Below, piece by piece: positions 1,824 to 17,283 of a stretch of DNA of 64,000 nucleotides. Position 1 is the stretch's first letter, and the number at the start of each line of letters is the position of its first letter. Source of the stretch: a virus; the IMG/VR virus record IMGVR_UViG_3300044799_000154, positions 1 through 64,000 of that record; one strand, given 5' to 3'. The notes beneath the pieces were generated by a model. It saw nothing but the letters and a program-made list of their open reading frames with translations, was not told where the DNA came from and searched no databases. Position numbers and translations under genes: made by a program.

Positions 1824-2054
1824 ATGGACTGTCCTATAAAACAAAATTGTTTAGCTAAGGATTGGTATCCAATATTCAGAGAAGTTTATTTAGAAAGAAC
1901 ATGGGAAGAATGGGAACGAGAACTCTGCAATAGTGGTCAATATCTAAAATGTTGTTTCTACAATTCAAAAGGCTTTCGTTTTAATCCATCTAAACGTCAT
2001 TCTCAATCAGAGAAAGCCAAGAAAGTAATCAGAATCTTAGAAGGGAAAGAATAA
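1824..2054 (+). CDS. Cys-containing small protein with tag
   Basis: 76 aa from ATG 1824, directly after the previous stop; GTG 1815 is an alternative. Cysteines at 3, 9, 35, 43 and 44 could bind metal. Tag NPSKR at 54-58 is followed by an 18-residue basic helix, so it is near but not at the end. Family not recognised. Confidence 0.65.
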   Translation: MDCPIKQNCLAKDWYPIFREVYLERTWEEWERELCNSGQYLKCCFYNSKGFRFNPSKRHSQSEKAKKVIRILEGKE

Positions 2055-2230
2055 TGCCAAAGCAATGTCCTGTCTGTGGCTATGATTTTGATGACAAAGG
2101 TAATTATTGGATTTGTCATCATTGTGGATTCGTTATCTCTAAGAACATCCATAAAGGTAAAGGTATTCACAATATAAGAAATTTCAATCCGAGTAGCAGA
2201 GATAATTTAGATGTTAGACCCGAAATCTGA
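2054..2230 (+). CDS. 58-aa zinc ribbon with tag
   Basis: MPKQCPVCGYDFDDKGNYW then CHHCG give C5xxC8 and C21xxC24, a textbook zinc ribbon. Tag NPSSR at 45-49. The start shares its A with the previous stop. The next gene begins inside its last codons. Confidence 0.65.
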   Translation: MPKQCPVCGYDFDDKGNYWICHHCGFVISKNIHKGKGIHNIRNFNPSSRDNLDVRPEI

Positions 2231-2585
2231 AATAGGAAAAGAAGTATTTGTTTGTGTTATCCATGACAGCGAAGTCTATATAGGACTTCACCGTGAAGCT
2301 ACTTTTTCTTCTTGCAAGAAATTTTTAGATGAAGTTCTCTCTGGTAAAAGGAAGAAATTCAAAATCTGTTTTGGTAAAGGAAAAATACTTGGAGTAACGG
2401 AAGAGAAAAATAAGAAATACGAAGTTTTAATAACTAAACTTTTCTTGAATGATGAAAATAATATCAGGGAAGAAGGAAAAACCTGTTGTTATGCTGATCT
2501 TTGGATTGAATTGGGAGAATATGCTAGAGAGCAATTCTCGAATCAGAATCCTTCAAGAAGAAGAATCTTGAAAGATTTTGAGTAA
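2211..2585 (+). CDS. Unrecognised protein with C-terminal tag
   Basis: 124 aa. A beta-rich N-terminus (EVFVCVIHDSEVYIGLHREATF) is followed by charged helices; tag NPSRR at 113-117. It is the last gene of its block; a 50-base gap with the palindrome follows. No homology recognised. Confidence 0.65.
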   Translation: MLDPKSEIGKEVFVCVIHDSEVYIGLHREATFSSCKKFLDEVLSGKRKKFKICFGKGKILGVTEEKNKKYEVLITKLFLNDENNIREEGKTCCYADLWIELGEYAREQFSNQNPSRRRILKDFE

Positions 2586-2635: not shown

Positions 2636-2974
2636 TTGGAAGATTTGGATGATATTCAATTTGTAAAGAATGGCTGGATAATGTTAGTGGAACTGATAGA
2701 GAAGAGAATTCTTATTGGTGAAGCTAACAAATGGTTTGAAGATTTCATAATCATGGGTATTACTCATGAGACAATCCATATCGTTATTGATAGCTTAGAG
2801 GGTTTGGAGACTACGGATAAATTTGATAATCTCTTTGGCTATGCAAATCCAACTGTTCTTTTAGTTCCTGAAAATGATTCGGAGTTTGATTCTGTTCAAA
2901 GAAGTAGATTAGAGAAGGTATTTTGGAATGAAAAAGGTAAGCGTAGAGTTAGGTTCTTGGATTCAAATCGTTGA
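2636..2974 (+). CDS. Small putative zinc metallopeptidase (HETIH)
   Basis: 112 aa, TTG start. GITHETIHIVI carries H44-E45-x-x-H48, the zinc-binding signature of zincin peptidases, in a short single-domain protein. A downstream third ligand is plausible (the acidic stretch SLEGLETTDKFDN) but not certain. It is the first of several HExxH-type proteins here. No tag; substrate unknown. Confidence 0.6.
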   Translation: MEDLDDIQFVKNGWIMLVELIEKRILIGEANKWFEDFIIMGITHETIHIVIDSLEGLETTDKFDNLFGYANPTVLLVPENDSEFDSVQRSRLEKVFWNEKGKRRVRFLDSNR

Positions 2975-3179
2975 TAGCTCAGATGGTAGTTTGGTAACAG
3001 GTCAATTAGAAAAATATTTATCAGACAAACCATTCGATGAAAATAATCTAGCTTTCAAAAGGAGAGGGTATCACATTCCTATTTTTCTTGACCAGATTGT
3101 TCATGTCTTTCCAAAGATTGAATTGAAAGAGAATCCTCAAGATATTAATCCTTCAAAGAGGGAATCTAATGAATCCTAG
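2928..3179 (+). CDS. Small beta-barrel-like protein with C-terminal tag (paralogue of 39009)
   Basis: 83 aa. The shared pattern G-S/T-W-I/V ... G-x-L/V-E-K ... K-R-G-Y/F ... L-x-x-I-V/I-x-x-F-P-K-I links it to the product at 39009, of equal length and with the tag in the same place (NPSKR 74-78 here). The repeated short strands suggest an SH3-like barrel (inference). Confidence 0.7.
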   Translation: MKKVSVELGSWIQIVDSSDGSLVTGQLEKYLSDKPFDENNLAFKRRGYHIPIFLDQIVHVFPKIELKENPQDINPSKRESNES

Positions 3180-3408
3180 TAAGAGACAAGTTACTTGTTT
3201 GGAATGTAAAGAAAAAACTGATGCTGACGAAGTTGTCTGTAAAGAATGTTTTGAATCTACTCAAAATACTGCTTATGATAGTGGTTTTGATGATGGTAAG
3301 GCTGATGGAAAGAAAGAAGGTTATGAATCTGGACACGATGAAGGTTACAATGAAGGATATTCTGAAGCTATTAAGCAAGTTCAAAAAGCTATAGAGAAGC
3401 TGGCATAA
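3169..3408 (+). CDS. Zinc ribbon fused to GX3 repeats, N-terminal tag
   Basis: 79 aa, starting MNPSKR (tag 2-6) inside the end of the previous gene, whose own tag lies about 25 bases upstream in another frame. C10xxC13 and C24xxC27 form a ribbon. Seven glycines follow at every fourth position, 39 to 63, the pattern of the deca-GX3 motif of Yae1-type proteins. Function unknown. Confidence 0.7.
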   Translation: MNPSKRQVTCLECKEKTDADEVVCKECFESTQNTAYDSGFDDGKADGKKEGYESGHDEGYNEGYSEAIKQVQKAIEKLA

Positions 3409-3441: not shown

Positions 3442-3651
3442 TTGACAATATTTGCAGTTAGAATCAAAGAATCGGATACCTATAACTACCATGTTTATCT
3501 AGTGGAAGCTAAGAATGAAAATCATGCCAAGAATGTAGCGGAAGCTAAATGGTATGAAAAACATAATATTAGAATAGCAGAAGGAGAAACCCAAGTCTGG
3601 GAAGTAGAATTAGATTTTAGTAATAGAGATAATCCGAGTGTGAGAGGCTAA
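3442..3651 (+). CDS. Small alpha/beta protein ending in the tag
   Basis: 69 aa, TTG start. Strand, helix containing EAKNENHAKNVAEAKW, strand; resembles 1128-1373. Ends NPSVRG, the tag at 64-68. Its stop overlaps the next start. Confidence 0.6.
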   Translation: MTIFAVRIKESDTYNYHVYLVEAKNENHAKNVAEAKWYEKHNIRIAEGETQVWEVELDFSNRDNPSVRG

Positions 3652-3893
3652 TGGAAATCTGGGTAGAAAGGAAATTAACTAAGCATCAAACACCATGTCA
3701 ATTCTGTCATAGAGAGATAGACAAAGGAGACTTTAGAGTAGTTGTAAGATATAATGGATATCATCAGCAAGATTCATTGTATGCTCATGTTGGATGTCTT
3801 CAGAACTTCACAGAACGAGAATTACTTCGTGCTAAAGAAACTCCAATTACAATAGATGAGAAAGTTAATCCTAGTCGGAGAGATGGACAATGA
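3651..3893 (+). CDS. PARP-type-like zinc-finger protein with tag
   Basis: 80 aa. C16QFC19 followed by EIDKGDFRV, an aromatic strand and YAHVGC gives a CxxC...HxxC site as in PARP-type or related DNA-binding fingers. Tag NPSRR at 73-77. The product at 12662 has the same arrangement (CxxC...GEER...HxxC). Confidence 0.65.
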   Translation: MEIWVERKLTKHQTPCQFCHREIDKGDFRVVVRYNGYHQQDSLYAHVGCLQNFTERELLRAKETPITIDEKVNPSRRDGQ

Positions 3894-4126
3894 AAAAGAA
3901 AATGGGTATTATAGAAAAAGACCTTAGAGTATCTCTTACCAAATATAAGGAAGATAGAAATCTTCAAGCTCTTTTGAAAGCAATTGTTACTCAATCTGAT
4001 AGCCATATCCATTACTTTTGGCAATATGATTTCTTTCAGAAGAAACTAGAAAAAGTTTGCAAAGAACTGATAAGTAATTCCAATCCTAGTCATAGAGAAG
4101 GAAGAGTAGATGCAGTATCGCCTTGA
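3890..4126 (+). CDS. Helical small protein with tag
   Basis: 78 aa, mostly amphipathic helix. Tag NPSHR at 65-69, with His at the variable position. Joined to its neighbours by overlaps. No family recognised. Confidence 0.6.
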   Translation: MKKKMGIIEKDLRVSLTKYKEDRNLQALLKAIVTQSDSHIHYFWQYDFFQKKLEKVCKELISNSNPSHREGRVDAVSP

Positions 4127-4345: not shown

Positions 4346-4771
4346 TTGATAATTGCAATTCTCAAGAAAAGAGGACAACTCTATATTGACTTATCATCCT
4401 ATAATAAAGGAAGCAAAGAACTAGAATTCAAAATAAGTGCTTACTATAAAGAAGACCATAAGAAGAAAGAAGAAGTAGGCGATTTGGAATATACGCTTAA
4501 AGTAAACAAAAATGGAATTCCAAAAGAAATCCATGTAGATAATATAGATGTTCGAGAACCTCTGTGGAAGAAAGGATATGGAAGAATACTAATGAGTTTC
4601 TGCCAAGCAATTGCTCAAGCTTCTAACTTGAAAGTAACTTTGTTCTCTTTGGGAGATGTAGTAGGATTCTACAGAAGATGTGGTTTTAATCCAGCTTGTA
4701 AAGACTCCCAAGACATGATATGGAGAGTTAAAAAGAGGAAAAAACATGATGCGAAAAGAGTTAAGATATGA
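4346..4771 (+). CDS. GNAT-family N-acetyltransferase-like protein
   Basis: 141 aa, TTG start two bases after the previous stop. The central REPLWKKGYGRILMSFC matches the acetyl-CoA-binding Q/RxxGxG/A loop and helix of GNAT enzymes, and VGFYRRCGF is the usual late motif. The acceptor is unknown. No tag. A second GNAT is at 9774. Confidence 0.75.
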   Translation: MIIAILKKRGQLYIDLSSYNKGSKELEFKISAYYKEDHKKKEEVGDLEYTLKVNKNGIPKEIHVDNIDVREPLWKKGYGRILMSFCQAIAQASNLKVTLFSLGDVVGFYRRCGFNPACKDSQDMIWRVKKRKKHDAKRVKI

Positions 4772-5018
4772 ATGCTTATTCTGTAATTTCTTTGATGAAT
4801 GCAGAAGATTAGAAGTTAATGAAATTATCATTAGAGCTATTCAAGAGACTGGAAAATGTCCTGATAGATATCCTATCAGAATAAATCCTTCTTGTAGAGT
4901 TCCTTTTTTCTATTGCTCAAGCAAGTATTATGTCATAGGCTCTGAAGAACCTATAGAGCTTGACAAATATTATAGAGTTCCTTCTAGGGAAGTGAAAGAA
5001 TATGTGGAGAAATCTTAG
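4746..5018 (+). CDS. Cys-rich protein with internal tag
   Basis: 90 aa. C10xxC13, C19 and C38 could form a zinc knuckle. The tag NPSCR is unusually central (47-51), followed by a beta-rich half (FFYCSSKYYVIG). It could be a fusion of a short tagged protein to a second domain. Confidence 0.6.
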   Translation: MMRKELRYECLFCNFFDECRRLEVNEIIIRAIQETGKCPDRYPIRINPSCRVPFFYCSSKYYVIGSEEPIELDKYYRVPSREVKEYVEKS

Positions 5019-5409
5019 AGAAAAAATATCAAGAACTTTGATTCCGCCAAAATCTAGAATCTATGTTAAACCAACTCAACAACCATCAACGATAGGTATG
5101 AAAGAACGAACTATTTTGTGTGATTGTTCAGATTGTAAAATAGAAAGTAAAGGATTCTTTGAAACGCTTCCTTTAGAAAATGGACATTGGACATCTTGCT
5201 CAGTTCATAAATGTAAAGACTGTGGTAGGATGGGTGGATTTCCACAAACAAACTTAGAAGATTCTATTTTGCATGGAACATTAGAAACTAAACAAGCTCT
5301 TCGTGATGCTGGTATTCCTGTAGATGAATTCATTACTGAATTCAAAAAGAAACACCCAATAACAGATGAACAATTGAATCCATCTAGGAGAGAAATAAAG
5401 AATGACTGA
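5002..5409 (+). CDS. Cys-rich protein with C-terminal tag
   Basis: 135 aa; an internal ATG at 5098 before CDCSDCK is an alternative start. Cysteine pairs CDCSDC and CSVHKCKDC suggest two metal sites. Tag NPSRR at 126-130. Function unknown. Confidence 0.65.
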   Translation: MWRNLREKISRTLIPPKSRIYVKPTQQPSTIGMKERTILCDCSDCKIESKGFFETLPLENGHWTSCSVHKCKDCGRMGGFPQTNLEDSILHGTLETKQALRDAGIPVDEFITEFKKKHPITDEQLNPSRREIKND

Positions 5410-5899
5410 TGATGATTGGTCTTACAAGATAAGTAAAAAGTATTGGCAGAACAAAGAAGAGTTAACAATTAAACTCCCACAAAATATCAAAGATGTCAAG
5501 ACAGTAGCTTATTTGTTGAGAACTTTCTTAGAGAACGAAAAGTGTCCTTTCAAAATTATCGGAGAAATAGAACTTCTCTACTCAGATAAAAGTGCAGATG
5601 CAAATTTAACTGAACATTGGGGTAGAGCTTATATTATAATTCCTGTATTGAAAAGAGGAATCTTAAAGAAACCTCGATATGACAAATTAGAAGAAAAGCA
5701 TTTCATAAAAGTAAGAATTTCTCTTGATAAATCAAATCTTGGAACATGGCAAGAACATTGTTGGGATAATGGAAATTGTCATAGATGGTACATGGAGATG
5801 GAACAAATCAAAGCATGGAAAGAACTTCTAGAGAAATTTGGTAAAACGCTTCCATCTTTGAAATCAAGTTCAGAGATAGGAAATCCTTCAGCTAGGTGA
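5402..5899 (+). CDS. Unrecognised 165-aa protein ending exactly in the tag
   Basis: A mixed alpha/beta protein with hydrophobic strands (AYIIIPVLKRGIL, FIKVRISL) and a Trp/His/Cys-rich segment (WQEHCWDNGNCHRWYM). The last five residues are NPSAR. No family recognised. Confidence 0.65.
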   Translation: MTDDDWSYKISKKYWQNKEELTIKLPQNIKDVKTVAYLLRTFLENEKCPFKIIGEIELLYSDKSADANLTEHWGRAYIIIPVLKRGILKKPRYDKLEEKHFIKVRISLDKSNLGTWQEHCWDNGNCHRWYMEMEQIKAWKELLEKFGKTLPSLKSSSEIGNPSAR

Positions 5900-6257: not shown

Positions 6258-6596
6258 ATGGGTAGAAAGAAAATAAGAAATGAAGAATATACTAGAATGA
6301 TTCTTCCAAAAACTACTGATGTAGTAGGAACAGTAGTACAGATGCTAGGCAATGATAGACTTCTAGTTAGACTTCCAGATGGAAAACAGATGATAGCTCG
6401 CATTAGAGGAAAGATGCGAAAGAGGGTTTGGATAAGACAAGGAGATGTAGTTCTAGTATCACCATGGGACTTTGAACCAGAGAAAGGAGACATTTTTTAC
6501 AGATATACACGAGACCAAGTCAAGGAACTAAAGAAACTTGGATTTAAGGTGTATGAACTTGGAGAAGGAAAGAAAACTAGCATCGGAAATAATTGA
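6258..6596 (+). CDS. Translation initiation factor aIF1A
   Basis: 112 aa, full length for archaeal aIF1A (about 100-115). The S1/OB core is clear: GTVVQMLGNDRLLVRLPDG, then IARIRGKMRKRVWIRQGDVV, then LVSPWDFEPEKGDI and the C-terminal Y-R-Y-x-x-D-Q-V-x-x-L segment. aIF1A binds the ribosomal A site on the small subunit during start-codon selection. With aRF1, eS26 and a tRNA it gives this element its own set of translation factors. No tag. Confidence 0.93.
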   Translation: MGRKKIRNEEYTRMILPKTTDVVGTVVQMLGNDRLLVRLPDGKQMIARIRGKMRKRVWIRQGDVVLVSPWDFEPEKGDIFYRYTRDQVKELKKLGFKVYELGEGKKTSIGNN

Positions 6597-6789
6597 CAGA
6601 GTTGAATGGGCTATCAGAAAAGCTCATCCTAAAGTAGATAAGGTAGGAAAGAACTGTCATGGAAATACACTACTTTATGGTGAGAAATATTTTGACTTAG
6701 AAGATACTCTGACTGAGATTATCCAAGATGCTTATCCTGCATATAGCAAGAAAAAGCAAACTTCATTCAATCCATCAAAAAGAGAATAA
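6553..6789 (+). CDS. Small helical protein with C-terminal tag
   Basis: 78 aa from ATG 6553, inside the aIF1A end (a TTG 15 bases upstream is also possible). Charged helix, then GNTLLYGEKYFDLEDTLTEI; ends NPSKRE, the tag at 73-77. Last gene of its block. Confidence 0.6.
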   Translation: MNLEKERKLASEIIDRVEWAIRKAHPKVDKVGKNCHGNTLLYGEKYFDLEDTLTEIIQDAYPAYSKKKQTSFNPSKRE

Positions 6790-6811
6790 CGTCTCTAAAA
6801 CGGGGTGAGCA

Positions 6812-6825
6812 TATGGTTAACCATG
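6812..6825. promoter_or_regulatory. Palindrome ATGGTTAACCAT before a zinc-ribbon gene
   Basis: The exact 12-base core is at 6813-6824, in a gap with G-rich flanks. Its ATG is in frame with the next gene and would add MVNHEVG to it; the more likely ATG is at 6834. Confidence 0.6.
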
Positions 6826-6833
6826 AAGTTGGC

Positions 6834-7082
6834 ATGTACAATTGTCCTGTTTGTAAGAAGAATCTTAAACGAATGGGTGAAGCTTCTATATTGACAGGCT
6901 TACCTAAAGAAGTAGGGAAGGAGATGGATTATTATTACTGTGCTGATTGTCACACGAATATGAATCGTTGTTGCTTTATCTTCTTTAAGGGCATAATATT
7001 CATTTTCTCTGACCATAAAAATTGGGAAGAACTAAGATTCAATCCAAGTGCAAGATATGGTGAAAATTATGAAATGCCCTGA
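6834..7082 (+). CDS. Zinc-ribbon protein, family A, with tag
   Basis: 82 aa. MYNCPVC opens the protein, a second pair lies in YYYCADC, then an aromatic strand with KNWEEL and the tag NPSAR at 70-74. The same plan (CPxC at residue 3-9, Y-x-C-x-x-C, W-x-F...W, tag) occurs at 14544, 15943 and 19657, defining a paralogous family. I prefer ATG 6834 because homologous members start right before CPxC. Confidence 0.7.
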   Translation: MYNCPVCKKNLKRMGEASILTGLPKEVGKEMDYYYCADCHTNMNRCCFIFFKGIIFIFSDHKNWEELRFNPSARYGENYEMP

Positions 7083-7176
7083 ATGTAAAGATACTTTGGT
7101 ATACGACCACATAGAGAATAAATGGTATTGTCTAAAGTGTAAAGCATATCCAGATGTAAAAATGATATTATGGTGA
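7069..7176 (+). CDS. 35-aa zinc ribbon
   Basis: MKCPECKDTLVYDHIENKW then CLKCK: C3xxC6 and C21xxC24 separated by a beta-hairpin, the minimum zinc ribbon. It overlaps the previous gene by 14 bases and ends just before the next start. No tag. Confidence 0.55.
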   Translation: MKCPECKDTLVYDHIENKWYCLKCKAYPDVKMILW

Positions 7177-7180
7177 AAGT

Positions 7181-7600
7181 ATGAATCCTTCAAGTAGAGA
7201 AATATATGTAGTTGGTGTTTTTGACTGTGGCTGTAACTATGAAGCTGGCTTTGGGTCTGTAGAGATAGTCAGATGCTCAAATATGTCAGAACTCAATGAC
7301 ATCAAACAGAAGATGAATAAACACTCTTCAGAATTTCAATGTCATTTTAGACATGCCCTCTGTCTCTTGGTTTTTGAAGGAAAACTTAAATTCAAATTTA
7401 AGGGATATGGAGCTAAGAGTTACAAAGGATATATCAGAACTTGGAATGCTAGGAACAAAGATGGAAGGAAAATGGGTAAGGAAATAGTTACTTTTAATAA
7501 GCAATTTGATAGAATTTGTGCATGGCTTGAAAGACATAGAAAATATAAAGAGAAAATTATACTTCAAGAAGATGCTAATACAGGATGTGGTTTAGCTTGA
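7181..7600 (+). CDS. Unrecognised protein with N-terminal tag
   Basis: 139 aa beginning MNPSSR (tag 2-6). A hydrophobic strand with a CGC motif (VVGVFDCGCNYEAGFG) is followed by a long basic helical region. No family recognised. Confidence 0.65.
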   Translation: MNPSSREIYVVGVFDCGCNYEAGFGSVEIVRCSNMSELNDIKQKMNKHSSEFQCHFRHALCLLVFEGKLKFKFKGYGAKSYKGYIRTWNARNKDGRKMGKEIVTFNKQFDRICAWLERHRKYKEKIILQEDANTGCGLA

Positions 7601-7785
7601 AAACTAAAATTAGATTTGCTTTTCCTTTAGGTGCAATTGCCTCAATTGCTATCTTTATCTATTTGATAAGTAGTGAAATCTGGTATCAACTAAGTTTTGC
7701 TCTGAAGTTCCTAGTAATAATTGCATTAACTATTCTATTCTTCTGTGGAGAGTTTGAATACTCAAAGGAAAGAAATGCACAGTGA
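7597..7785 (+). CDS. Small membrane protein, two TM segments
   Basis: 62 aa from a TTG that overlaps the previous stop (TTGA). Two hydrophobic segments at about 9-27 and 34-53 with a short loop, then a charged C-terminus. No tag. Likely in the cell membrane; role unknown. Confidence 0.6.
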   Translation: MKTKIRFAFPLGAIASIAIFIYLISSEIWYQLSFALKFLVIIALTILFFCGEFEYSKERNAQ

Positions 7786-7802
7786 CTGACTGGCGGGAAT
7801 TG

Positions 7803-7816
7803 CATGGTTAACCATG
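7803..7816. promoter_or_regulatory. Palindrome CATGGTTAACCATG, perfect copy
   Basis: A perfect 14-base palindrome in the 83-base gap after the membrane protein gene. A TATA-like ATATAT at 7844-7849 lies 20-25 bases before the next ATG (7869), placing the palindrome upstream of a possible archaeal core promoter. Confidence 0.6.
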
Positions 7817-7868
7817 TCAGAAAATGGAAATGGGGAAACAGGGATATATTCAAATTGGATGAATATTA

Positions 7869-8282
7869 ATGAGTGTGAAAATAACTCTTTCAGAGAATGC
7901 AAAGCGTCAGATTATCTTTCATGCTTGTCTTGATGCAAAGAATAAATTCTATCCAAATGCTATTGTCAATTGGGTAGATGATGATTATAAAATCTTAGTA
8001 TATTTTTGTTCTAAAATACAAACAAAGAAGAAAGTAGGTTTCTTACGAAAGAAAGAAATTTCTGAAGAACATGACTTAGAGATTCATTGTGTAGAAGTCA
8101 AACTCTGTCATCTAGGGTTCAATGATATGGATTGGGGAGAAATTAAAGTCAAGTCTCTTCATAAAGATTATGATGCCCTAGCAGAAGAGATAGCTCATAC
8201 CATTGAACAATACACATCAATAATTCTCATTATTAATAACCCAAGTAAAGTAGAATCTTTACAGAATCCAAGTAGGAGATAA
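7869..8282 (+). CDS. Unrecognised protein ending in a doubled tag
   Basis: 137 aa. The alpha/beta core has several cysteines and histidines (EIHCVEVKLCHLGF). It ends NPSKV-ESLQ-NPSRR (124-137): a degenerate copy, a four-residue spacer and a full tag at the very C-terminus. The product at 14544 ends the same way with the same spacer length. Confidence 0.65.
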   Translation: MSVKITLSENAKRQIIFHACLDAKNKFYPNAIVNWVDDDYKILVYFCSKIQTKKKVGFLRKKEISEEHDLEIHCVEVKLCHLGFNDMDWGEIKVKSLHKDYDALAEEIAHTIEQYTSIILIINNPSKVESLQNPSRR

Positions 8283-8283
8283 G

Positions 8284-8430
8284 ATGAGATTCAAACGTGG
8301 ATATTATGGATATCTAGAGTTCGTCAGACCTAATCCATCTCGAAGAGACTCTTTTATTCAAACTGAATGCGAATGTGGCATAGAACCAGCTACACACTTT
8401 CATAAAGTTTACAAAGAGAGGAAAAGATGA
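8284..8430 (+). CDS. 48-aa protein with central tag
   Basis: Basic, aromatic start (MRFKRGYYGYLEF), tag NPSRR at 17-21, then a CEC pair. ATG directly follows the previous stop and the end overlaps the next gene by ATGA, which supports it despite its length. Confidence 0.5.
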   Translation: MRFKRGYYGYLEFVRPNPSRRDSFIQTECECGIEPATHFHKVYKERKR

Positions 8431-8537
8431 TGATGAGATGGTGGTGGTGTTCTAAACACCATATTGCTGTCCCTGTAACTGATGAATGTCCTATCTGTGA
8501 AAGAGAGAAGATGAATCCTAGTAGGCGAGAACAATGA
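8427..8537 (+). CDS. 36-aa zinc microprotein ending in the tag
   Basis: MMMRWWWCSKHH, then CPICER and NPSRREQ. C8, H11/H12, C21 and C24 could bind one zinc ion. Tag at 30-34. Overlaps both neighbours by four bases. Confidence 0.5.
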   Translation: MMMRWWWCSKHHIAVPVTDECPICEREKMNPSRREQ

Positions 8538-8728
8538 TTCCCACCTCATATTTTTGCCCCATCTGTAGTGAATATCGAGCTAATAATGTCTTTGACTTTA
8601 TTTCTCACATAAGTATGAAGCATGGACAAGGAAATCCTTTCAAAGATGAGGAAAGAAAATATTGGTTGAATCCTAGCAGGAGAGATAATCTTGATATCAC
8701 AAGACTCAGGAAAAGATATGGAGAATAA
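8534..8728 (+). CDS. C2H2 zinc-finger protein with tag
   Basis: 64 aa. C8PIC11, then H25 and H30 (FISHISMKHG) form a C2H2 finger as in eukaryotic and archaeal-virus regulators. Tag NPSRR at 46-50, followed by a basic tail. Probably nucleic-acid binding. Confidence 0.7.
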   Translation: MIPTSYFCPICSEYRANNVFDFISHISMKHGQGNPFKDEERKYWLNPSRRDNLDITRLRKRYGE

Positions 8729-8957
8729 GAAGAATCAGGCTCTCTTGAGTATTCTGAGTTCAGAAGCAAGGCAACGGTTAGAACGCATAAGGATGGTAAG
8801 CACAGATAGAGCAGAATATCTTGAATATATCTTAATCCATCTAGCTTCTCAGAATAAACTTAGAATTCCAATGGGAGATGAAGATTTCAAGACTTTCATT
8901 ATGAGTAATGTTCCATCAAAAAGAGAAATTACAATAAAACGAGAATATGAAAAATAA
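8718..8957 (+). CDS. PDCD5/TFAR19-family DNA-binding protein
   Basis: 79 aa from ATG 8718. NQALLSILSSEARQRLERIR, the VSTDRAEYLE turn and DEDFKTFI are the three-helix signature of the archaeal PDCD5 family (usually 110-120 aa with a longer N-terminal helix, so this copy is short). It ends with NVPSKRE (64-70), close to but not matching the tag. Archaeal members bind DNA; their role is not settled. Confidence 0.85.
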   Translation: MENKKNQALLSILSSEARQRLERIRMVSTDRAEYLEYILIHLASQNKLRIPMGDEDFKTFIMSNVPSKREITIKREYEK

Positions 8958-8969
8958 AGAGGAATAATT

Positions 8970-9311
8970 TTGGGTTTGTATTTTTCAGGAAGAATAATTC
9001 AAGAAGAGACAGTTCTAAAACATCTGTTGGGAAAAGGTGTTCAACCCATTGGGAAAGAGGATGGAGCCAATGCTAATTATAACTGTGAAAGCTTGGGTCA
9101 TCGGATATGGGTTTGGATTAACCTGAACACAGGATATACAATAGCAACAGGAGATGAAGGAAATGGGTGGGTTATTGAATTAGCTAAAGGAACAAAAGAA
9201 GAAGTCTTAGAGAAAATACACCCTCTCAACTCTTCCAGACGAGTTCAAGATTCTAAGATTAAACCTCGTTATCGTAATATTTTTGAAAGTATCAAATCTT
9301 TGGAAAGGTAA
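8970..9311 (+). CDS. Unrecognised protein with a degenerate tag
   Basis: 113 aa, TTG start. Beta-rich centre (HRIWVWINLNTGYTIATGDEGNGWVIEL). NSSRR at 87-91 looks like the tag with Pro replaced by Ser, leaving a 22-residue basic tail. No family recognised. Confidence 0.6.
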   Translation: MGLYFSGRIIQEETVLKHLLGKGVQPIGKEDGANANYNCESLGHRIWVWINLNTGYTIATGDEGNGWVIELAKGTKEEVLEKIHPLNSSRRVQDSKIKPRYRNIFESIKSLER

Positions 9312-9315
9312 GAAG

Positions 9316-9414
9316 ATGAGGAAAATTATTAAAAGAGAAAAGCTTTGTAAACATTGCAAGAATCAAATTGCTTCTCCAAAGTATGCTTGGTTCTGTGACC
9401 ATTGGGTGAGATAG
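9316..9414 (+). CDS. 32-aa zinc-binding microprotein
   Basis: C11xxC14, C28 and H30 in a basic 32-residue peptide. ATG lies five bases after the previous stop. No tag. Kept at low confidence for its size. Confidence 0.4.
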   Translation: MRKIIKREKLCKHCKNQIASPKYAWFCDHWVR

Positions 9415-9417
9415 ATA

Positions 9418-9789
9418 ATGAGAAATATTCAGATGAGCTGGAAAGAGTTTGATAGAACTACTCGCTTACTAGCTAGAGACATTAAGAAATCCAAGATACA
9501 ATATTCAGCTCTTTGTGGAATTCCAAGAGGAGGGTTAATGATAGCCGTTAGGTTATCTCATCTTTTAAATATTCCATTAACAGAAAATGAAAGCTTAGAT
9601 TTTATGGATAGAACGATATTGATAGTTGATGATGTAGCAGATACAGGCAAGACTCTACAGTTCTATGCACGTTTTGGTTTTCCAACAGCTACATTATATT
9701 GGAATCCTGAATCTTCTATGCAACCTAAATTCTGGATTAAAAGAAAGTCTTCAAAAGAATGGATTGTCTTTCCATGGGAACAGATGTAA
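9418..9789 (+). CDS. Phosphoribosyltransferase-family protein
   Basis: 123 aa. LIVDDVADTGKT at 68-79 is the PRPP-binding loop of type I PRTases, and CGIPRGGLMIAVRLS is the conserved early segment. It is shorter than purine PRTases (about 180 aa), as in small archaeal and viral PRTases. It would use PRPP to salvage a nucleobase, or act as a regulator; the base cannot be told. Confidence 0.85.
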   Translation: MRNIQMSWKEFDRTTRLLARDIKKSKIQYSALCGIPRGGLMIAVRLSHLLNIPLTENESLDFMDRTILIVDDVADTGKTLQFYARFGFPTATLYWNPESSMQPKFWIKRKSSKEWIVFPWEQM

Positions 9790-10316
9790 TAGAATTCAGA
9801 AAACTGAAAAGAACAGATAAGAAATTGCTCTTGACTTTTGCTAAAGCTTTAACTTCTGACACTAAGATGAGATGGGGTTTACTAGAAGAACCAAAAGATA
9901 TTGCTAGATACATTATGGAAGAAAGACATAGAAATGGTTGCAAGAAGCATACTCAGATAATTGGTATTCAGAACAAAGTAATTGTTTGCTATGGAAAGGT
10001 TAGTGTCTTTGAATCTGGAGTTGGTTATATTGAAGGAATAGTAGTTCGTTCAGATTTACAAGGTAAAAGTATAGGAAAGCAACTGATGACATATCTGGAA
10101 TCTTTAGCTGAGAAAGAGAATTGTCCTTATGTAAAGTTAGAAGTATTCAAGGAGAACACCAAGTCAATTGAATTCTATGAACATATAGGCTACAAGAAGA
10201 GAGGACAATCAAGTGGCTCTTGGTTCATGAGGAAATACTTAAATCCAAATATACCCAAGAAAGAAAATCTGTTCAAGAAAATTAAACGTAAGTTGAAAGC
10301 TAAACGCAAATCCTAG
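9774..10316 (+). CDS. GNAT-family acetyltransferase
   Basis: 180 aa from ATG 9774, overlapping the PRTase end. GYIEGIVVRSDLQGKSIGKQL is the strand-4 and acetyl-CoA loop (Q-G-K-S-I-G), and SIEFYEHIGYKKRG is the late GNAT motif. A basic C-terminal extension (about residues 150-180) may bind nucleic acid. Its stop codon shares a base with the tRNA gene that follows. Confidence 0.85.
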   Translation: MGTDVIEFRKLKRTDKKLLLTFAKALTSDTKMRWGLLEEPKDIARYIMEERHRNGCKKHTQIIGIQNKVIVCYGKVSVFESGVGYIEGIVVRSDLQGKSIGKQLMTYLESLAEKENCPYVKLEVFKENTKSIEFYEHIGYKKRGQSSGSWFMRKYLNPNIPKKENLFKKIKRKLKAKRKS

Positions 10317-10404
10317 TTGGGGTGGCAGAGTTTGGTAATGCGTAAGTTTGCTAAACTTAAGCCTGTCTATGACAGCAAGAGTTCAAATCTCTTCCCCAAC
10401 GCCA
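10316..10404 (+). tRNA. tRNA-Ser(GCU), CCA encoded
   Basis: Acceptor stem GTTGGGG (10316-10322) pairs with CCCCAAC (10394-10400); discriminator G, then an encoded CCA. The anticodon stem TAAGT/ACTTA holds loop TTGCTAA with anticodon GCT at 10350-10352. A long variable arm (CTGTC/GACAG) marks a class II tRNA, as expected for serine, and the T arm is AAGAG-TTCAAAT-CTCTT. It would read AGU/AGC, common serine codons here and in many tags. The first base is the last base of the upstream stop codon. Confidence 0.92.
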
Positions 10405-10427
10405 TCTCATACATGTCACCTTTTCCC

Positions 10428-10439
10428 AAGGTTAACCAT
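10428..10439. promoter_or_regulatory. Palindrome variant AAGGTTAACCAT
   Basis: One mismatch to the 12-base palindrome; it is the reverse complement of the variant at 14472 and 30156. It lies between the tRNA and the next gene start at 10461. Confidence 0.5.
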
Positions 10440-10460
10440 CTGTAATGGGGGAATCGGGAT

Positions 10461-10685
10461 ATGTTTACTGAAGAAACAATTTCCTTAAAAAATATGGAAA
10501 GAGAGAAAAGGAAAATAGAGACTCATCCTAATTCTGCTCACCTTAAGATATTTCCTTTCAAATGCCCTAGTTGCAAGAAGACAGATATATTCTGGTTCAA
10601 TAGCAATGATTTCCTAGTCTGTAGTCATTGCCGTCATATATGGTTACTTGAAGTAGAGAATCCAACACGGAGAGATTGTAAATGA
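10461..10685 (+). CDS. Zinc ribbon with variant tag NPTRR
   Basis: 74 aa. CPSCKKTDIFWF and CSHCRHIW form a ribbon, and NPTRR at 67-71 keeps the tag with Thr for Ser. Same plan as 615 and 14852. It overlaps the next gene by ATGA. Confidence 0.65.
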   Translation: MFTEETISLKNMEREKRKIETHPNSAHLKIFPFKCPSCKKTDIFWFNSNDFLVCSHCRHIWLLEVENPTRRDCK

Positions 10686-10876
10686 AAACTCCTCTAATCT
10701 GTGAAAGATGTCATAAGAAATTCTTATGTCAAGCTAGAGTTAGTGGAAAATATCCTGTATCCGATTGTGAGACAGTTGAAAAATGTGTCTGTGAGAATTG
10801 TAATCCTGCAAATAGAAAGTCACCTTCTTGTCATAATATTCCTTTTGAAATGAATCCGTCAAGACGTGACAATTGA
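10682..10876 (+). CDS. Cys-rich small protein ending in the tag
   Basis: 64 aa with CERCHKKFLC, CVCENC and further cysteines, enough for two zinc ions. Tag NPSRR at 58-62, two residues before the stop. Confidence 0.65.
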   Translation: MKTPLICERCHKKFLCQARVSGKYPVSDCETVEKCVCENCNPANRKSPSCHNIPFEMNPSRRDN

Positions 10877-11159
10877 GGAAGACAACTTGAAAAACTGTGA
10901 AAAATGTGGTTTAGCTCCTGATTTATGTGCTTGCAAAGAAGAAGAGAAAGAGAAGTCAATGCTTGAGAAATATTGCCCAATCTCAGAAAGAGAAAGATGC
11001 GTGATATGTGGTCATATATGTTTTGGACTTATGGATTTTGCACAGCATGTAGCTCAATTTCATGGAATCTCTGCACTTCAGTATTGGAATAAATATGGAC
11101 ACAATGGAGAAAAACAAACTGATGAGACAATCAATCCATCTAAACGTAAACAAGAATAA
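10866..11159 (+). CDS. Two-finger zinc protein (CxxCGLxxxxCxC plus C2H2) with tag
   Basis: 97 aa, GTG start. The N-terminal CEKCGLAPDLCACKEEE resembles the short zinc knuckle often placed before SUI1/aIF1-type domains, but no SUI1 domain follows. Instead CVICGHICFGLMDFAQHVAQFHG is a C2H2 finger. Tag NPSKR at 90-94. Possibly an RNA- or ribosome-binding adaptor (speculative). Confidence 0.65.
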   Translation: MTIEEDNLKNCEKCGLAPDLCACKEEEKEKSMLEKYCPISERERCVICGHICFGLMDFAQHVAQFHGISALQYWNKYGHNGEKQTDETINPSKRKQE

Positions 11160-11169
11160 GAAAATAAAA

Positions 11170-11271
11170 ATGAAATGTCCACATTGTCTGAAAGAATTTG
11201 AGCCTAAAGCTCTTGCTGAATTATATGTATGTCCCTTATGTGGTTGTTGGATGCCTAGATATGAAAGATAA
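11170..11271 (+). CDS. 33-aa zinc ribbon
   Basis: MKCPHCLKEF and CPLCGCW give a minimal ribbon. A longer reading from upstream is open but overlaps the previous gene, and family members usually start at MKCP. No tag. Confidence 0.5.
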   Translation: MKCPHCLKEFEPKALAELYVCPLCGCWMPRYER

Positions 11272-11482
11272 AAAGATTTGGAAAATCTATGTTAAAGATA
11301 ATCTTTGCATTCGATGTGGAAAGTTCATTGATGCTCAAACTTACTTTGGAGTCTTGTGTCAGAAATGTAATGAGTTGTGGATAGAATTTGCTCAAGAGAA
11401 TGGTATATCTCCACTTTATGCAGATTCTAAGAAGAAATTCTGGTATAGTTTCATAGATATGAATCCTTCAAGTAGGTTGTAA
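11261..11482 (+). CDS. Zinc ribbon, family B, ending in the tag
   Basis: 73 aa from ATG 11261. CIRCGKF and LCQKCNELW are followed by a helix, an aromatic W-Y-S-F-I-D-M segment and NPSSRL (tag 68-72). Products at 15091, 16978 and 19271 share the plan CxxC...CxxC...W...aromatic...tag. Confidence 0.65.
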   Translation: MKDKKIWKIYVKDNLCIRCGKFIDAQTYFGVLCQKCNELWIEFAQENGISPLYADSKKKFWYSFIDMNPSSRL

Positions 11483-11483
11483 T

Positions 11484-11636
11484 ATGAACCCATCTTTAAG
11501 ATATAGAGTAAAATGTAAACCTGAGAAAGTAACATATCTTGGAGAAGCATTTATTGGTAAAAATTGTTATTATTGGATAAAAGGATATTGTAGTTTCAAA
11601 GGAAAATGTTGCTTCAAAGCAGGAACTAGAATGTGA
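11484..11636 (+). CDS. 50-aa Cys-rich protein with N-terminal tag
   Basis: Starts MNPSLR (tag 2-6) two bases after the stop of a gene that ends with its own tag, so two tags flank the junction. Five cysteines (11, 28, 36, 42, 43). No family recognised. Confidence 0.55.
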   Translation: MNPSLRYRVKCKPEKVTYLGEAFIGKNCYYWIKGYCSFKGKCCFKAGTRM

Positions 11637-11641
11637 TTTAA

Positions 11642-12631
11642 ATGGAATCAGAAAAACAAGCAAAAATCAAAGAATTATACATGAAATCAGAAATTAAAGC
11701 AATCATCACCTTGTATATCAGACCTGAGACTAGAAAACAGAAGATACTAGATTTATTGAAGAAAGAAGAACCAATAGTTGATAATATCAAGTCTAGGGTA
11801 ACGAGAGAAGGAATCAAAGCATCATTTCAACGTCTTAAAACTTTCATTGAAAGAATACCAAGTTCTGAGAATGGTTATATTATCTGTGTCTCTCCAGAAA
11901 AGCTAGTTTATGTCACAGATATTGTAGTAAATAGAGACAAATACTTTTGTGGTGGAGAATTCTATTCTGTTCCTTTGGAAGAAGAATTAGCATTAAGACT
12001 TCATCCAATAGGAATAATAGCTCTTGATACTCAAGAAGCAACTATTGCTTTTATTGGAAATAGAATTGAGATTCTTAAATCTATGACTTCTGGAATCTCT
12101 GGTAAACATAATAAAGGTGGACAATCTCAAAGAAGATTTGAACGAGAACGAGAAATGGAGATATTGAATTTCTTCCATAGGGTAGCTGATGCTTCTAAAG
12201 TCTTTGTGGAGAGTTATCCAATAGAAGAATTGTTGGTTTCTGGATGTGGACAAACTAAGAACAAGTTTCTTGATTCCAAGTATTTAGATTATAGACTTAA
12301 AGAGAAAGTAACTTTGGTTCTTGATACTCAATATACAGGAGATGCTGGTATCAGAGAAACCCTTCATAAAGCATTACCTTCTCTTGAAAAGAATGCTTAT
12401 GCTAAAGAAGTTAAAGCAGTAGAGGATTTCTTTGAACTTCTAAACAAGAACTTTGAAAGAGTTGTTTATGGGAAAGAAGAAATAGAAAAGAATCTTCATT
12501 CAATTACTAAGATTATCAAGGTAGAAGAAAACCCTTTGAATTATGAGAAAGACACCATAGTCCTTCATTTCAAAGGAGAACATGCTGATAAAATAAGAGG
12601 ACTTGGTGGAATTGTTGGAGTTAAGTGCTAA
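11642..12631 (+). CDS. Peptide chain release factor aRF1 (compact)
   Basis: 329 aa against about 410-420 for cellular aRF1. Domain 1 keeps the stop-decoding NIKS at 48-51 (VDNIKSRVTREGIKASFQRL); domain 2 keeps the hydrolysis motif GKHNKGGQSQRRFERERE with GGQ at 159-161; domain 3 begins near LDTQYTGDAGIRETL. The C-terminal region is short and I see no zinc minidomain. It would recognise stop codons in the A site and release nascent chains; all three stop codons are used here. No tag. Confidence 0.92.
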   Translation: MESEKQAKIKELYMKSEIKAIITLYIRPETRKQKILDLLKKEEPIVDNIKSRVTREGIKASFQRLKTFIERIPSSENGYIICVSPEKLVYVTDIVVNRDKYFCGGEFYSVPLEEELALRLHPIGIIALDTQEATIAFIGNRIEILKSMTSGISGKHNKGGQSQRRFEREREMEILNFFHRVADASKVFVESYPIEELLVSGCGQTKNKFLDSKYLDYRLKEKVTLVLDTQYTGDAGIRETLHKALPSLEKNAYAKEVKAVEDFFELLNKNFERVVYGKEEIEKNLHSITKIIKVEENPLNYEKDTIVLHFKGEHADKIRGLGGIVGVKC

Positions 12632-12661: not shown

Positions 12662-12916
12662 ATGAAAGGTATGAAGTTATTTAAAATTCACACAGGAAGA
12701 GTAGAAGTTAAATGCTCTATCTGTTGGAAGAATATTCCTGTTGGAGAAGAAAGATTAACAGCCAATCTAGGTTCTGGAATGTATCCACGTCATTATCACA
12801 TTCTTTGTTTCTTGAAGAGATATATCAAAGAGATTAATTATCTTGGAAATAGAATTCAAGTAGAACTGAATCCTTCTTCAAGAAAAACAATAGAAAGCAA
12901 AGAGGAAGAAGAATGA
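12662..12916 (+). CDS. PARP-type-like zinc-finger protein with tag
   Basis: 84 aa (ATG 12671 is an alternative). CSICWKNIPVGEERLT then PRHYHILCF gives CxxC...HxxC as at 3651. Tag NPSSR at 70-74, followed by an acidic tail. Confidence 0.65.
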   Translation: MKGMKLFKIHTGRVEVKCSICWKNIPVGEERLTANLGSGMYPRHYHILCFLKRYIKEINYLGNRIQVELNPSSRKTIESKEEEE

Positions 12917-13251: not shown

Positions 13252-13837
13252 AAAGAAAATATTTCTTATTCTTCTAGCAGTAATCTTTGGAGGCTATGCT
13301 GGATGGCAATTACTTATACCCAATGAACCTCTTGTGAATATCTACAAGTGGCGATATGAAGAGATGAGTAAACCAGAATATCTTCAAGCTCTTAGAGATT
13401 TCTGTACGAATGAGCTTAATGATTCCATTGAAAACTTAAACTATTCTCAGCTAATAACTTGGGAACACAAACATCTGACATATACTCCTTATCAATTCAA
13501 CAGAGAAGAGATGCCTATTGCAATTCTAAAAGGACTTTTCGGTAGATGTGGAGAATTTGCTCTTTGTTACAATGGTTTATGCCTAGCAAATGGATATGAG
13601 ACAAGATTGATAGTAGATGATTCTAGAGCTACAGGTAACAAAACATCAGGAGACCATGTTTGGGTAGAAGTTAAAATTAATGGAAATTGGATTCATGTAG
13701 ACCCAACTGAATCTCGTTTTAATGACTCAAAGATGTATATCAGAGATTGGAACAAAGAAGTCAATCATGTCGTAGCTATAAGTAAAGATAATTCTGGTAA
13801 CATGGTGATAATAGATGTTACGAAAGATTACCAATGA
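13238..13837 (+). CDS. Membrane-anchored transglutaminase-like protein
   Basis: 199 aa (ATG 13244 also possible). A hydrophobic segment at about 7-25 predicts a signal anchor. The transglutaminase-like triad is in order: Cys104 in FGRCGEFA, His140 in GDHVWVEV, Asp155 in IHVDPTES. Archaeal members are thiol proteases, transamidases or peptide-N-glycanase-like; which one is unclear. Likely acts at the cell surface. No tag. Confidence 0.85.
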   Translation: MVMSKKKIFLILLAVIFGGYAGWQLLIPNEPLVNIYKWRYEEMSKPEYLQALRDFCTNELNDSIENLNYSQLITWEHKHLTYTPYQFNREEMPIAILKGLFGRCGEFALCYNGLCLANGYETRLIVDDSRATGNKTSGDHVWVEVKINGNWIHVDPTESRFNDSKMYIRDWNKEVNHVVAISKDNSGNMVIIDVTKDYQ

Positions 13838-14051
13838 AACAACATTCTCAGAAGAATATTGTAGAATTCTAAGGGAATCACAGCGAAGATTAGCTTTGAT
13901 ATCTGAAGAAGATGATAAGGCTTCTCTTTGGAATGACTACTTTCTGAAACTTCAACTTTTACAAGAATGTATAAATATGAATCCAAGTCGAAGAGACCAT
14001 AAAGAAAATAAAAACTACTCATTTGTAGCTCCATGGATAGTGGGGAAATGA
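13815..14051 (+). CDS. Helical small protein with tag
   Basis: 78 aa, mostly helical, tag NPSRR at 56-60 with an 18-residue tail. It starts inside the end of the transglutaminase-like gene and overlaps the next start by ATGA. Confidence 0.6.
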   Translation: MLRKITNETTFSEEYCRILRESQRRLALISEEDDKASLWNDYFLKLQLLQECINMNPSRRDHKENKNYSFVAPWIVGK

Positions 14052-14543: not shown

Positions 14544-14852
14544 ATGGACAAAAAATGGGAAAATCTAAAAAGAAAGGAAGAAAAGTATATGAAGACACAC
14601 GATACTATGTTTGTCTGTCCTTATTGCAATGCTTTTCTAGTTCCTTGGTCTTGGGATGGGAATCGTGAAAAAGCTAAGACTGGTTATGTATTCCAATATG
14701 TTTGTCAATGTAATTTATCAAAAAGGAAAGGTTCTCCTTCATGGTATGAAACGATTGAGAAAAAAAGAAGAAGTGATTGGTATTTCTTCAATGGAATCCA
14801 ATGGACTAATCCATCTAAAGTTCCTATTTTATTCAATCCTTCGGTGAGATAA
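14544..14852 (+). CDS. Zinc-ribbon protein, family A, ending in a doubled tag
   Basis: 102 aa; ATG 14589 (MKTHDTMFVCPYC) fits family members better and has AAGGAAG upstream. VCPYC and VCQC ligands, then WYFFNGIQW. Ends NPSKV-PILF-NPSVR (89-102), the same doubled ending as at 7869 but with different serine codons. Confidence 0.65.
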   Translation: MDKKWENLKRKEEKYMKTHDTMFVCPYCNAFLVPWSWDGNREKAKTGYVFQYVCQCNLSKRKGSPSWYETIEKKRRSDWYFFNGIQWTNPSKVPILFNPSVR

Positions 14853-15090: not shown

Positions 15091-15339
15091 ATGAGAGAAA
15101 CCTGTTTTAAATGTAAAGAAAGTTTCAACAGGGAAGCTCTTTTTGAGATTTATCTTACCGTTCATCTTGCAACAGATAGTAATTGTTATCTTTGTCCGAC
15201 ATGTTTGGAAACATGGGTACAGATATACAACAGATGGAAACGAACAAGGCATGATGATTTCTGGAATAGAGGTTGGGATGAATTTCTAAAAAGGAAAGCC
15301 AAGAATATATTTAATCCCTCTATGAGAGGTTCTACATGA
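15091..15339 (+). CDS. Zinc ribbon, family B, with tag
   Basis: 82 aa from ATG 15091; a TTG at 15073 overlapping the previous stop is an equally good start. CFKCKESF and LCPTCLETW, then an aromatic helix and NPSMR at 75-79. Confidence 0.65.
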   Translation: MRETCFKCKESFNREALFEIYLTVHLATDSNCYLCPTCLETWVQIYNRWKRTRHDDFWNRGWDEFLKRKAKNIFNPSMRGST

Positions 15340-15942: not shown

Positions 15943-16233
15943 ATGGATTGTCCTTATTGTAAAAATAAGATGGATGTCTCAGAAGTTTCATCAACCTATA
16001 TTTGGAACAAGGGATTACCTAAACCTTTTTGCAATAAAGATTGGAAATATTATACTTGTGAAAAATGTTACAAAGACAAGAAAGGAGAAAATCACTTTTT
16101 CTGTTTTGTTTTTCTTCCAGATAAGGAGATTTACATCTGGGATAATTCCAAACACTACTGGAAAAAATTGAATCTTGCTATAAATCCATCAAGGAGAGAT
16201 AGTCCATACACAAAAGAAGAGAAAACAGGATAA
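15943..16233 (+). CDS. Zinc-ribbon protein, family A, with tag
   Basis: 96 aa from ATG 15943. MDCPYCKNKM, then KYYTCEKCYKD, a strand with IYIWDNSKHYW, and NPSRR at 81-85. Closest in plan to 6834 and 19657. Confidence 0.7.
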   Translation: MDCPYCKNKMDVSEVSSTYIWNKGLPKPFCNKDWKYYTCEKCYKDKKGENHFFCFVFLPDKEIYIWDNSKHYWKKLNLAINPSRRDSPYTKEEKTG

Positions 16234-16271: not shown

Positions 16272-16499
16272 TTGCTTATAGATTGCTATCGAGTAAAAAT
16301 AGAATTTAAACCTGATGGCATGATGAGATTCTACTTTTTCAATTGTAACGAGAAAGGAGATTCTTGCATTGAAATCAAAGAACCAATATTTCAAGCAATA
16401 GTTTCTCACGAAAAGGAAAGAACATTTATTTTCAATAATCCTTTTATAAATCCAAGTAAGAGGTTTAATAATGATAAAGCAAAAGACAAAGAATACTGA
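16272..16499 (+). CDS. Small beta-rich protein with tag
   Basis: 75 aa from TTG 16272. Coding-like sequence continues upstream in frame to about 16220 without ATG, GTG or TTG (ending INWDGEN), so the true start may be a rarer codon such as ATA at 16229. Tag NPSKR at 60-64. Confidence 0.55.
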   Translation: MLIDCYRVKIEFKPDGMMRFYFFNCNEKGDSCIEIKEPIFQAIVSHEKERTFIFNNPFINPSKRFNNDKAKDKEY

Positions 16500-16977: not shown

Positions 16978-17283
16978 TTGAGAACCAAATTTATGCTTGG
17001 TCAAAAGGGAGAATATTCTAACTTCTCCAATTTTATTCCCTCAATAGAAGAGGAATCAAAATTGAAAGAAATCAGATGCTTAAAATGTCATGTAAAACTA
17101 AAACATAATCAAGGATTTAAAGTCAATTGGAATCCTACAGGATGGCTATGTTATTCTTGCCAAAATAAATGGACAGAACTATTTTTCAAAAAGAAATTAG
17201 AAAAAGCCATGTATGGTAAAAGAGAAGAACTTATCAATAAAGTCTGGAGAAATTTTATAGATTTCAATCCTTCTTATAGGTAG
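16978..17283 (+). CDS. Zinc ribbon, family B, ending in the tag
   Basis: 101 aa, TTG start (ATG 16993 alternative). CLKCHVKL and LCYSCQNKW, then a long helix and an aromatic W-R-N-F-I-D-F segment, ending NPSYR at the last residue. Closely parallels 11261. Confidence 0.65.
   Translation: MRTKFMLGQKGEYSNFSNFIPSIEEESKLKEIRCLKCHVKLKHNQGFKVNWNPTGWLCYSCQNKWTELFFKKKLEKAMYGKREELINKVWRNFIDFNPSYR

Follow-up and report, generated by a model that had tools for sequence, protein, structure and literature searches.

A short NPSxR motif, probably a docking tag, recurs on small left-arm proteins of a tailed virus with a probable Bathyarchaeia host

The virus record (IMG/VR IMGVR_UViG_3300044799_000154) is 121,517 bp long, and the 64,000-nt window analysed here covers its bases 1-64000. 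The record is a tailed dsDNA virus (Caudoviricetes), of which the window forms the left arm. A five-residue motif, NPSxR, recurs in the small proteins encoded on the + strand of this arm and is selected at the protein level. We read NPSxR as a protein-level terminal docking tag and assign this core claim, its destination apart, a probability of roughly 0.78. The motif has the appearance of an address label, of a type for which no earlier description in viruses is known.

On the translated + strand of the whole record NPSxR occurs 74 times, always before base 63,400, and it occurs 0 times on the - strand and 0 times in the structural arm. Within the called left-arm proteins, 64 occurrences were observed against 0.14 expected from composition (Poisson ~1e-143), and the 23 remaining permutations of these residues each occurred 0-1 times. 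An unbiased four-residue motif search ranked NPSxR first, in 62 of the 150 left-arm proteins; in the haloarchaeal viruses HGTV-1 and HRTV-25, in host small proteins and in the right arm of the virus, even the top motif reached at most 8 proteins. A profile scan gave 72 left-arm hits and 0 on the right, compared with 0.7 that the host rate would predict, and placed the tag on 67 of the 125 left-arm proteins shorter than 200 aa. That the tag imitates a motif widespread in the host was considered and is unsupported, as a 1.6-Mb bathyarchaeal contig of the host lineage is at background (2 NPSxR observed vs 2.4 expected).

The consensus of the tag is [F/I/M/L]-N-P-S-[R/K]-R-[D/E]: position -1 of NPSxR is mostly F, I, M, L or V, R or K predominates at x, and the motif is frequently followed by D or E. 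All three + strand frames contain tags, and some tags are internal to open reading frames (ORFs). Most (53/74) end within 21 residues of the stop and most others lie near the N-terminus; two proteins, at 25263 and 33017, are double-tagged. In the RNase H-like protein (32309..32833) the tag stands at residue 6, N-terminal to the matched domain. The tag serine is encoded by AGT (23), TCA (18), TCT (15), TCG (4), TCC (3) and AGC (1), Asn and Pro are likewise each written in several codons, and the arginine uses six codons, chosen as in the left-arm average. Since the codons vary synonymously, selection acts on the protein; a DNA element would not switch between AGT and TCN for serine.

The tagged proteins are soluble, 36-186 aa long and mostly orphans. 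None of 68 contains a transmembrane segment, compared with 7 of the 57 untagged left-arm proteins (p 0.003), and CxxC zinc-ribbon-like motifs are found in 32/68 tagged vs 15/57 untagged proteins (p 0.026). The untagged proteins include aIF1A, aRF1, eS26, the family-B DNA polymerase (PolB), TopoIB, RNR, the GNAT and PRTase enzymes, the virion proteins, and the RecA-like, XPF-like and ParB-like proteins. The tagged product of 40664..40960 is a paralogue of residues 238-294 of the virus's own major capsid protein (MCP; E 4e-8), and also matches the MCP of a host-lineage provirus (E 8e-6) and PHROG MCP profiles (E 3e-5). Similarly, the tagged product of 48383..48673 is a paralogue of a 117-aa protein (record 97423-97776; 33% over 73 aa, E 1e-4), a probable tail assembly chaperone because its gene lies just upstream of a probable tape measure gene, the usual chaperone site. 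The virion copies of both, the capsid protein and the probable tail chaperone, are untagged. AlphaFold modelled the 44338-45585 product and the capsid fragment with low confidence only (pLDDT 35 and 40, respectively). The tagged and variant-tagged ORFs are as follows.

615..836, +, ORF with NPSRR in the C-terminal region
850..1131, +, ORF with N-terminal NPSRR
1128..1373, +, ORF with N-terminal NPSSR
1262..1822, +, ORF with internal NPSRR (residue 48/186)
1824..2054, +, ORF with C-terminal NPSKR
2054..2230, +, zinc-ribbon-like ORF with C-terminal NPSSR
2211..2585, +, ORF with C-terminal NPSRR
2928..3179, +, ORF with C-terminal NPSKR
3169..3408, +, ORF with N-terminal MNPSKR
3442..3651, +, ORF with C-terminal NPSVR
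3651..3893, +, ORF with C-terminal NPSRR
3890..4126, +, ORF with C-terminal NPSHR
4746..5018, +, ORF with internal NPSCR
5002..5409, +, ORF with C-terminal NPSRR
5402..5899, +, ORF with NPSAR as final residues
5904..6248, +, ORF with NPSKR as final residues, immediately before aIF1A
6559..6789, +, ORF with C-terminal NPSKR
6813..7082, +, ORF with C-terminal NPSAR
7181..7600, +, ORF with N-terminal MNPSSR
7869..8282, +, ORF with NPSRR as final residues
8284..8430, +, ORF with NPSRR at residue 17/48
8427..8537, +, ORF of 36 aa with C-terminal NPSRR
8534..8728, +, ORF with C-terminal NPSRR
10461..10685, +, variant-tagged ORF with C-terminal NPTRR
10682..10876, +, ORF with C-terminal NPSRR
10887..11159, +, ORF with C-terminal NPSKR
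11225..11482, +, ORF with C-terminal NPSSR
11484..11636, +, ORF with N-terminal MNPSLR, immediately before aRF1
12662..12916, +, ORF with C-terminal NPSSR, immediately after aRF1
13815..14051, +, ORF with C-terminal NPSRR
14544..14852, +, ORF with NPSVR as final residues
14852..15076, +, ORF with C-terminal NPSER
15091..15339, +, ORF with C-terminal NPSMR
15943..16233, +, ORF with C-terminal NPSRR
16272..16499, +, ORF with C-terminal NPSKR
17062..17283, +, ORF with NPSYR as final residues
18435..18656, +, ORF with C-terminal NPSRR
18704..18952, +, ORF with N-terminal NPSLR
18956..19267, +, variant-tagged ORF with C-terminal NPTRR
19271..19660, +, ORF with C-terminal NPSRR
19657..19911, +, ORF with C-terminal NPSRR
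25263..25580, +, double-tagged ORF with N-terminal NPSER and C-terminal NPSKR, immediately before eS26
28021..28284, +, ORF with C-terminal NPSSR
29351..29710, +, ORF with C-terminal NPSRR and variant NPNRR
30570..30854, +, ORF with C-terminal NPSRR
31474..31803, +, ORF with C-terminal NPSFR
31800..32312, +, ORF with N-terminal NPSSR
32309..32833, +, variant-tagged RNase H-like ORF with NPSRK at residue 6
33017..33244, +, double-tagged ORF with NPSCR near the N-terminus and C-terminal NPSRR
33238..33564, +, ORF with N-terminal NPSKR
34268..34657, +, ORF with internal NPSTR
34636..34887, +, ORF with NPSRR at about residue 28/83
35425..35730, +, ORF with N-terminal NPSMR
35730..35927, +, ORF with N-terminal NPSAR
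37380..37769, +, ORF with C-terminal NPSRR and N-terminal variant NPNYR
39009..39260, +, ORF with C-terminal NPSLR
40664..40960, +, capsid-protein fragment with C-terminal NPSRRDN, paralogue of MCP residues 238-294
41596..41937, +, ORF with C-terminal NPSKR
41937..42140, +, ORF with C-terminal NPSKR
43330..43518, +, ORF with C-terminal NPSKR
44151..44333, +, ORF with C-terminal NPSYR
45582..45821, +, ORF with N-terminal NPSKR
46302..46640, +, ORF with NPSKR as final residues
48383..48673, +, paralogue of probable tail assembly chaperone with C-terminal NPSAR
48724..48924, +, ORF with NPSRR at residue 41/66
48939..49175, +, variant-tagged ORF with MDPSKR and NPTKR
49187..49552, +, ORF with C-terminal NPSKR
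49988..50533, +, ORF with N-terminal NPSLR
50523..50786, +, ORF with C-terminal NPSRR
53039..53278, +, variant-tagged ORF with C-terminal DPSYR
53813..54049, +, ORF with N-terminal NPSKR
54039..54203, +, ORF with N-terminal NPSRR
62325..62516, +, ORF with C-terminal NPSKR
63220..63390, +, ORF with C-terminal NPSGR

At 33238-33590, the ORF stops at 33564 and a further C-terminal tag, INPSKRDKQ followed by a stop, comes right after it in another frame; the pair may reflect a frameshift, a sequencing error or an overlapping gene.

A strict short motif at one or other end of many unrelated soluble proteins has the look of a docking or address signal, most simply one with a single putative receptor, which would bind the tag and bring together small proteins that have nothing else in common. 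To the broader proposal, in which one terminal pentapeptide and a single receptor would form a modular address system and any domain that the virus acquires could thus join one assembly, we give slightly better than even odds. The assembly could be a virion cargo set, a factory or a degradation pathway, into which the virus's own capsid and tail-chaperone paralogues would have been captured.

Several observations weigh against the docking reading. The tag Asn, Pro and Ser codons depart mildly from arm usage (p 0.02, 0.0006 and 0.013, respectively), and genes and starts were called by a simple script, the enrichment itself being independent of gene calling. In the data searched the tag was seen in one genome only, which gave no evidence that relatives conserve it, and the 87%-identical relative, L006, covers the structural arm only; the one NPSIR in L006 sits in a frame of 13 codons and was not counted as a tag. 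Queries of IMG/VR with PolB, TopoIB, ParB-like, aIF1A and aRF1 sequences and with two codon-specific tag patterns revealed no tagged relatives, most matches of the first pattern being one conserved protein with YRHGNPSKRDPKNE and not tags. A codon pattern found no tag clusters in 257 Bathyarchaeia genomes. The codon patterns are of limited sensitivity, each matching a fraction of the tags, and related tagged viruses may be missed. A literature search for NPSxR gave no match, a weak test, as motif notation varies.

The destination is a separate matter. We tentatively rank the virion first, at odds of about one in three: NPSxR may direct takeover or anti-defence proteins, later ejected, into the capsid. 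The ranking follows from the parallels offered by the capsid targeting sequence (CTS) of phage T4 and by encapsulin cargo peptides; it is opposed by the orientation of the tagged genes, which are co-oriented with the replication genes and opposite to the virion genes. The same orientation would suit an intracellular hub, in which the tag would draw small viral proteins into a replication factory, condensate or shell rather than the virion, much as the Rubisco-binding motif acts in the pyrenoid. Such a hub, which we hold only slightly less probable than the virion, would also agree with a tag that is placed at either end or internally, on soluble proteins only, and with the greater frequency of CxxC motifs among tagged proteins. 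However, the obvious factory residents (polymerase, TopoIB, RecA-like, XPF-like and ParB-like proteins) are untagged and no shell protein was recognised; for chimallin, the shell protein of the phage nucleus, no family match was found among those virus proteins, a part of the proteome, that were scanned with Pfam or PHROGs. The phage nucleus also matches badly, because no linear signal is known for import into it (PMC11087766).

A third and distinctly improbable option is a role in proteolysis, with NPSxR as a degron or as a mark of adaptors that, through their varied domains, would deliver targets to a protease, for example the viral LonB. The record encodes an archaeal LonB-type protease (113801-115975, - strand; Lon_C E 6e-21, LonB LID E 1e-9), and two tagged proteins, the capsid fragment at 40664 and the tail-chaperone paralogue at 48383, have paralogues among the virion assembly proteins, as baits would. 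Lon usually recognises hydrophobic, loosely defined degrons, unlike the polar and strict NPSxR. Finally, a nucleic-acid feature (promoter, processing site or the next gene's Shine-Dalgarno site) that happens to read NPSxR has next to no chance, since the amino acids are kept while the codons vary (AGT/TCN, AGR/CGN) and tags also lie at N-termini, inside ORFs and in all three frames, even though the ARRAGR codons look like a Shine-Dalgarno site and the next start often follows a C-terminal tag by 3-30 nt; a DNA repeat was rejected on the same grounds of codon variety, N-terminal positions and frame.

The original prediction, which does not mention NPSxR, concerned a different set of genes in the window, and described a mobile element that carries the following components of the translation apparatus.

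6258..6596, +, aIF1A, 112 aa, untagged (PF01176 above cut-off, E 1.6e-27)
10316..10404, +, tRNA-Ser(GCU) (ARAGORN; Rfam RF00005, 60.2 bits)
11642..12631, +, aRF1, 329 aa, C-terminal domain shortened, untagged (eRF1 domain 2 PF03464, E 4e-27)
25598..25891, +, eS26, 97 aa, untagged (PF01283 over 1-97 of 108, E 3e-24)

The Pfam, ARAGORN and Rfam matches show all four to be genuine, and the mobile element is the tailed virus itself: the presence of a terminase, an HK97-type capsid protein and PolB on the record indicates that the window is viral and not a piece of chromosome. The aIF1A is 50-57% identical to Bathyarchaeota aIF1A, and all four of its relatives in an unrestricted genome scan were from Bathyarchaeota. 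The aRF1 retains NIKS at position 48 and GGQ at position 159, with up to 41% identity to Bathyarchaeia homologues. It lacks the ~100 C-terminal residues of host aRF1 (homologues of ~420-430 aa), the match ending near residue 288/329 and covering only 34/106 positions of eRF1_3. For eS26, identity to Bathyarchaeia reaches 74% and these are its nearest relatives in a phylum-wide sample; in an eS26 tree, the viral protein falls beside Bathyarchaeia, on a branch that is long and unresolved. The aIF1A, aRF1 and eS26 genes are thus probably of Bathyarchaeia origin, as judged by homology. Together with the tRNA-Ser they are accessory genes, probably taken from bathyarchaeal hosts, that probably support translation during infection. 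A general translation-boosting role is plausible, since ribosomes can take up virus-encoded ribosomal proteins, as those of E. coli do bS21 and bL12 (PMC6375957).

The original prediction went further and proposed that the element, with its many TTG and GTG starts and overlapping genes, may alter host ribosomes in favour of viral polycistronic messages. The genes are indeed real and host-like, the close overlaps between neighbouring genes were confirmed, eS26 is exchangeable in yeast, leaving and re-entering mature ribosomes (PMC8880767), and ribosomal proteins that exchange in this way are the ones that viruses tend to carry (PMC6375957). The supposed abundance of TTG and GTG starts, however, was not borne out: the left-arm calls contain 120 ATG, 24 TTG and 4 GTG (81% ATG), and a Shine-Dalgarno match precedes 75% of left-arm genes vs 21% of all ATGs. 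Ribosome retuning is unsupported because viral starts are mostly ATG with ordinary Shine-Dalgarno sites; the truncated and diverged aRF1 and the absence of an AGY codon excess also argue against it, and we hold it very improbable, although some effect of the carried genes on ribosomes is possible. The AGY share of Ser codons is 30% in the virus vs 41% in a host-lineage genome, and a codon-supply role for tRNA-Ser(GCU) was rejected on this ground.

The left arm (+ strand, ~1-64 kb) consists of small genes and replication genes; a second + strand block occupies 64-81 kb and the structural arm lies on the - strand at 81-116 kb. In record coordinates, the terminase large subunit is at 117970-119574 (phrog_2, E 1.6e-24), the HK97-type MCP at 101912-102994 (phrog_267, E 5e-14) and a weak match to the tail tape measure family phrog_1533 at 94803-97271 (E 5e-4). 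PolB is only ~22-27% identical to its counterparts in haloarchaeal tailed viruses. The host is probably a member of the Bathyarchaeia, since the closest relatives of the carried cellular genes (aIF1A, eS26, TopoIB) are found there; TopoIB reaches 57% identity to Bathyarchaeia over nearly its full length. Terminase and PolB searches of 257 Bathyarchaeia genomes yielded remote matches only. An apparent tailed provirus, with a capsid protein related to that of this virus, is present at ~796-800 kb of the host-lineage contig of bathyarchaeon G130 (L197). In IMG/VR the terminase query matched only L006 (3300047507; structural arm, ~87% DNA identity). The record is probably incomplete at its end, because L006 runs on for ~1.1 kb beyond it; the last ~1.6 kb of the record (119,937-121,517) contain no called gene.

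Further genes were noted outside the tagged set. A TOP6A/Spo11-like toprim protein (20783-21763, E 8e-9) and a 492-aa protein without a family match (22680-24158), in which GxG-type motifs suggest a GHKL ATPase, are perhaps a TopoVI-like pair, and a separate eukaryote-type TopoIB is encoded at 46855. The PAPS-reductase-family protein at 24224-25117 matches the BrxP, SspD and DndC profiles and might have a function in DNA modification or counter-defence. Two ParB-like proteins occur in this one virus (26288-27310 and 56417-57220). The LonB-type protease, encoded outside the window, has long hydrophobic stretches that resemble membrane segments. Mutually similar proteins of ~300-460 aa at record 69.5-78.8 kb (L002; 69483/73942; 70612, 74958, 75909, 76890, 77808) are probably glycosyltransferases.

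Ribosomal proteins encoded by other viruses (bS21 and bL12; L21e and bL19 in archaeal viruses) resemble eS26 in their probable acquisition from hosts (PMC6375957, PMC8651126, PMC10848311). The archaeal-virus examples named in PMC8651126 and PMC10848311 do not include eS26, aIF1A or aRF1, and the three together, which appear to be a new combination for archaeal viruses, would extend the translation components reported there. Kunpengvirus and other tailed viruses of Bathyarchaeia share a tail and, probably, the host lineage with this virus, and Kunpengvirus also carries a ribosomal protein (PMC10848311). TopoIB, LonB, eS26, aIF1A, aRF1 and the tag system may set the present record apart.

The T4 CTS is N-terminal, longer, present on a handful of proteins and removed by the prohead protease. 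The tag described here, by contrast, comprises 5-7 residues on 67 proteins and is mostly C-terminal, 53/74 copies ending within 21 residues of that terminus. What the two systems have in common is that small unrelated viral proteins share one short targeting sequence, the CTS being the only element common to the T4 internal proteins, whose functional parts differ (PMC3012670). Encapsulin shells, which have the HK97 fold, load cargo through short peptides at either end (PMC7355545). The likeness is again a short terminal peptide, in a virus with an HK97-type capsid protein; the sequence of the tag is different and its clients are far more numerous. In the pyrenoid, one short Rubisco-binding motif, often near the C-terminus, gathers many proteins in one compartment; this is a eukaryotic organelle with another motif and a known receptor, Rubisco. 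If NPSxR is a shared address tag, it would sort 67 proteins into one functional class and predict their location, and a virus of a major archaeal class would possess a sorting system that reaches far more proteins than the capsid-targeting examples known from prokaryotic viruses.

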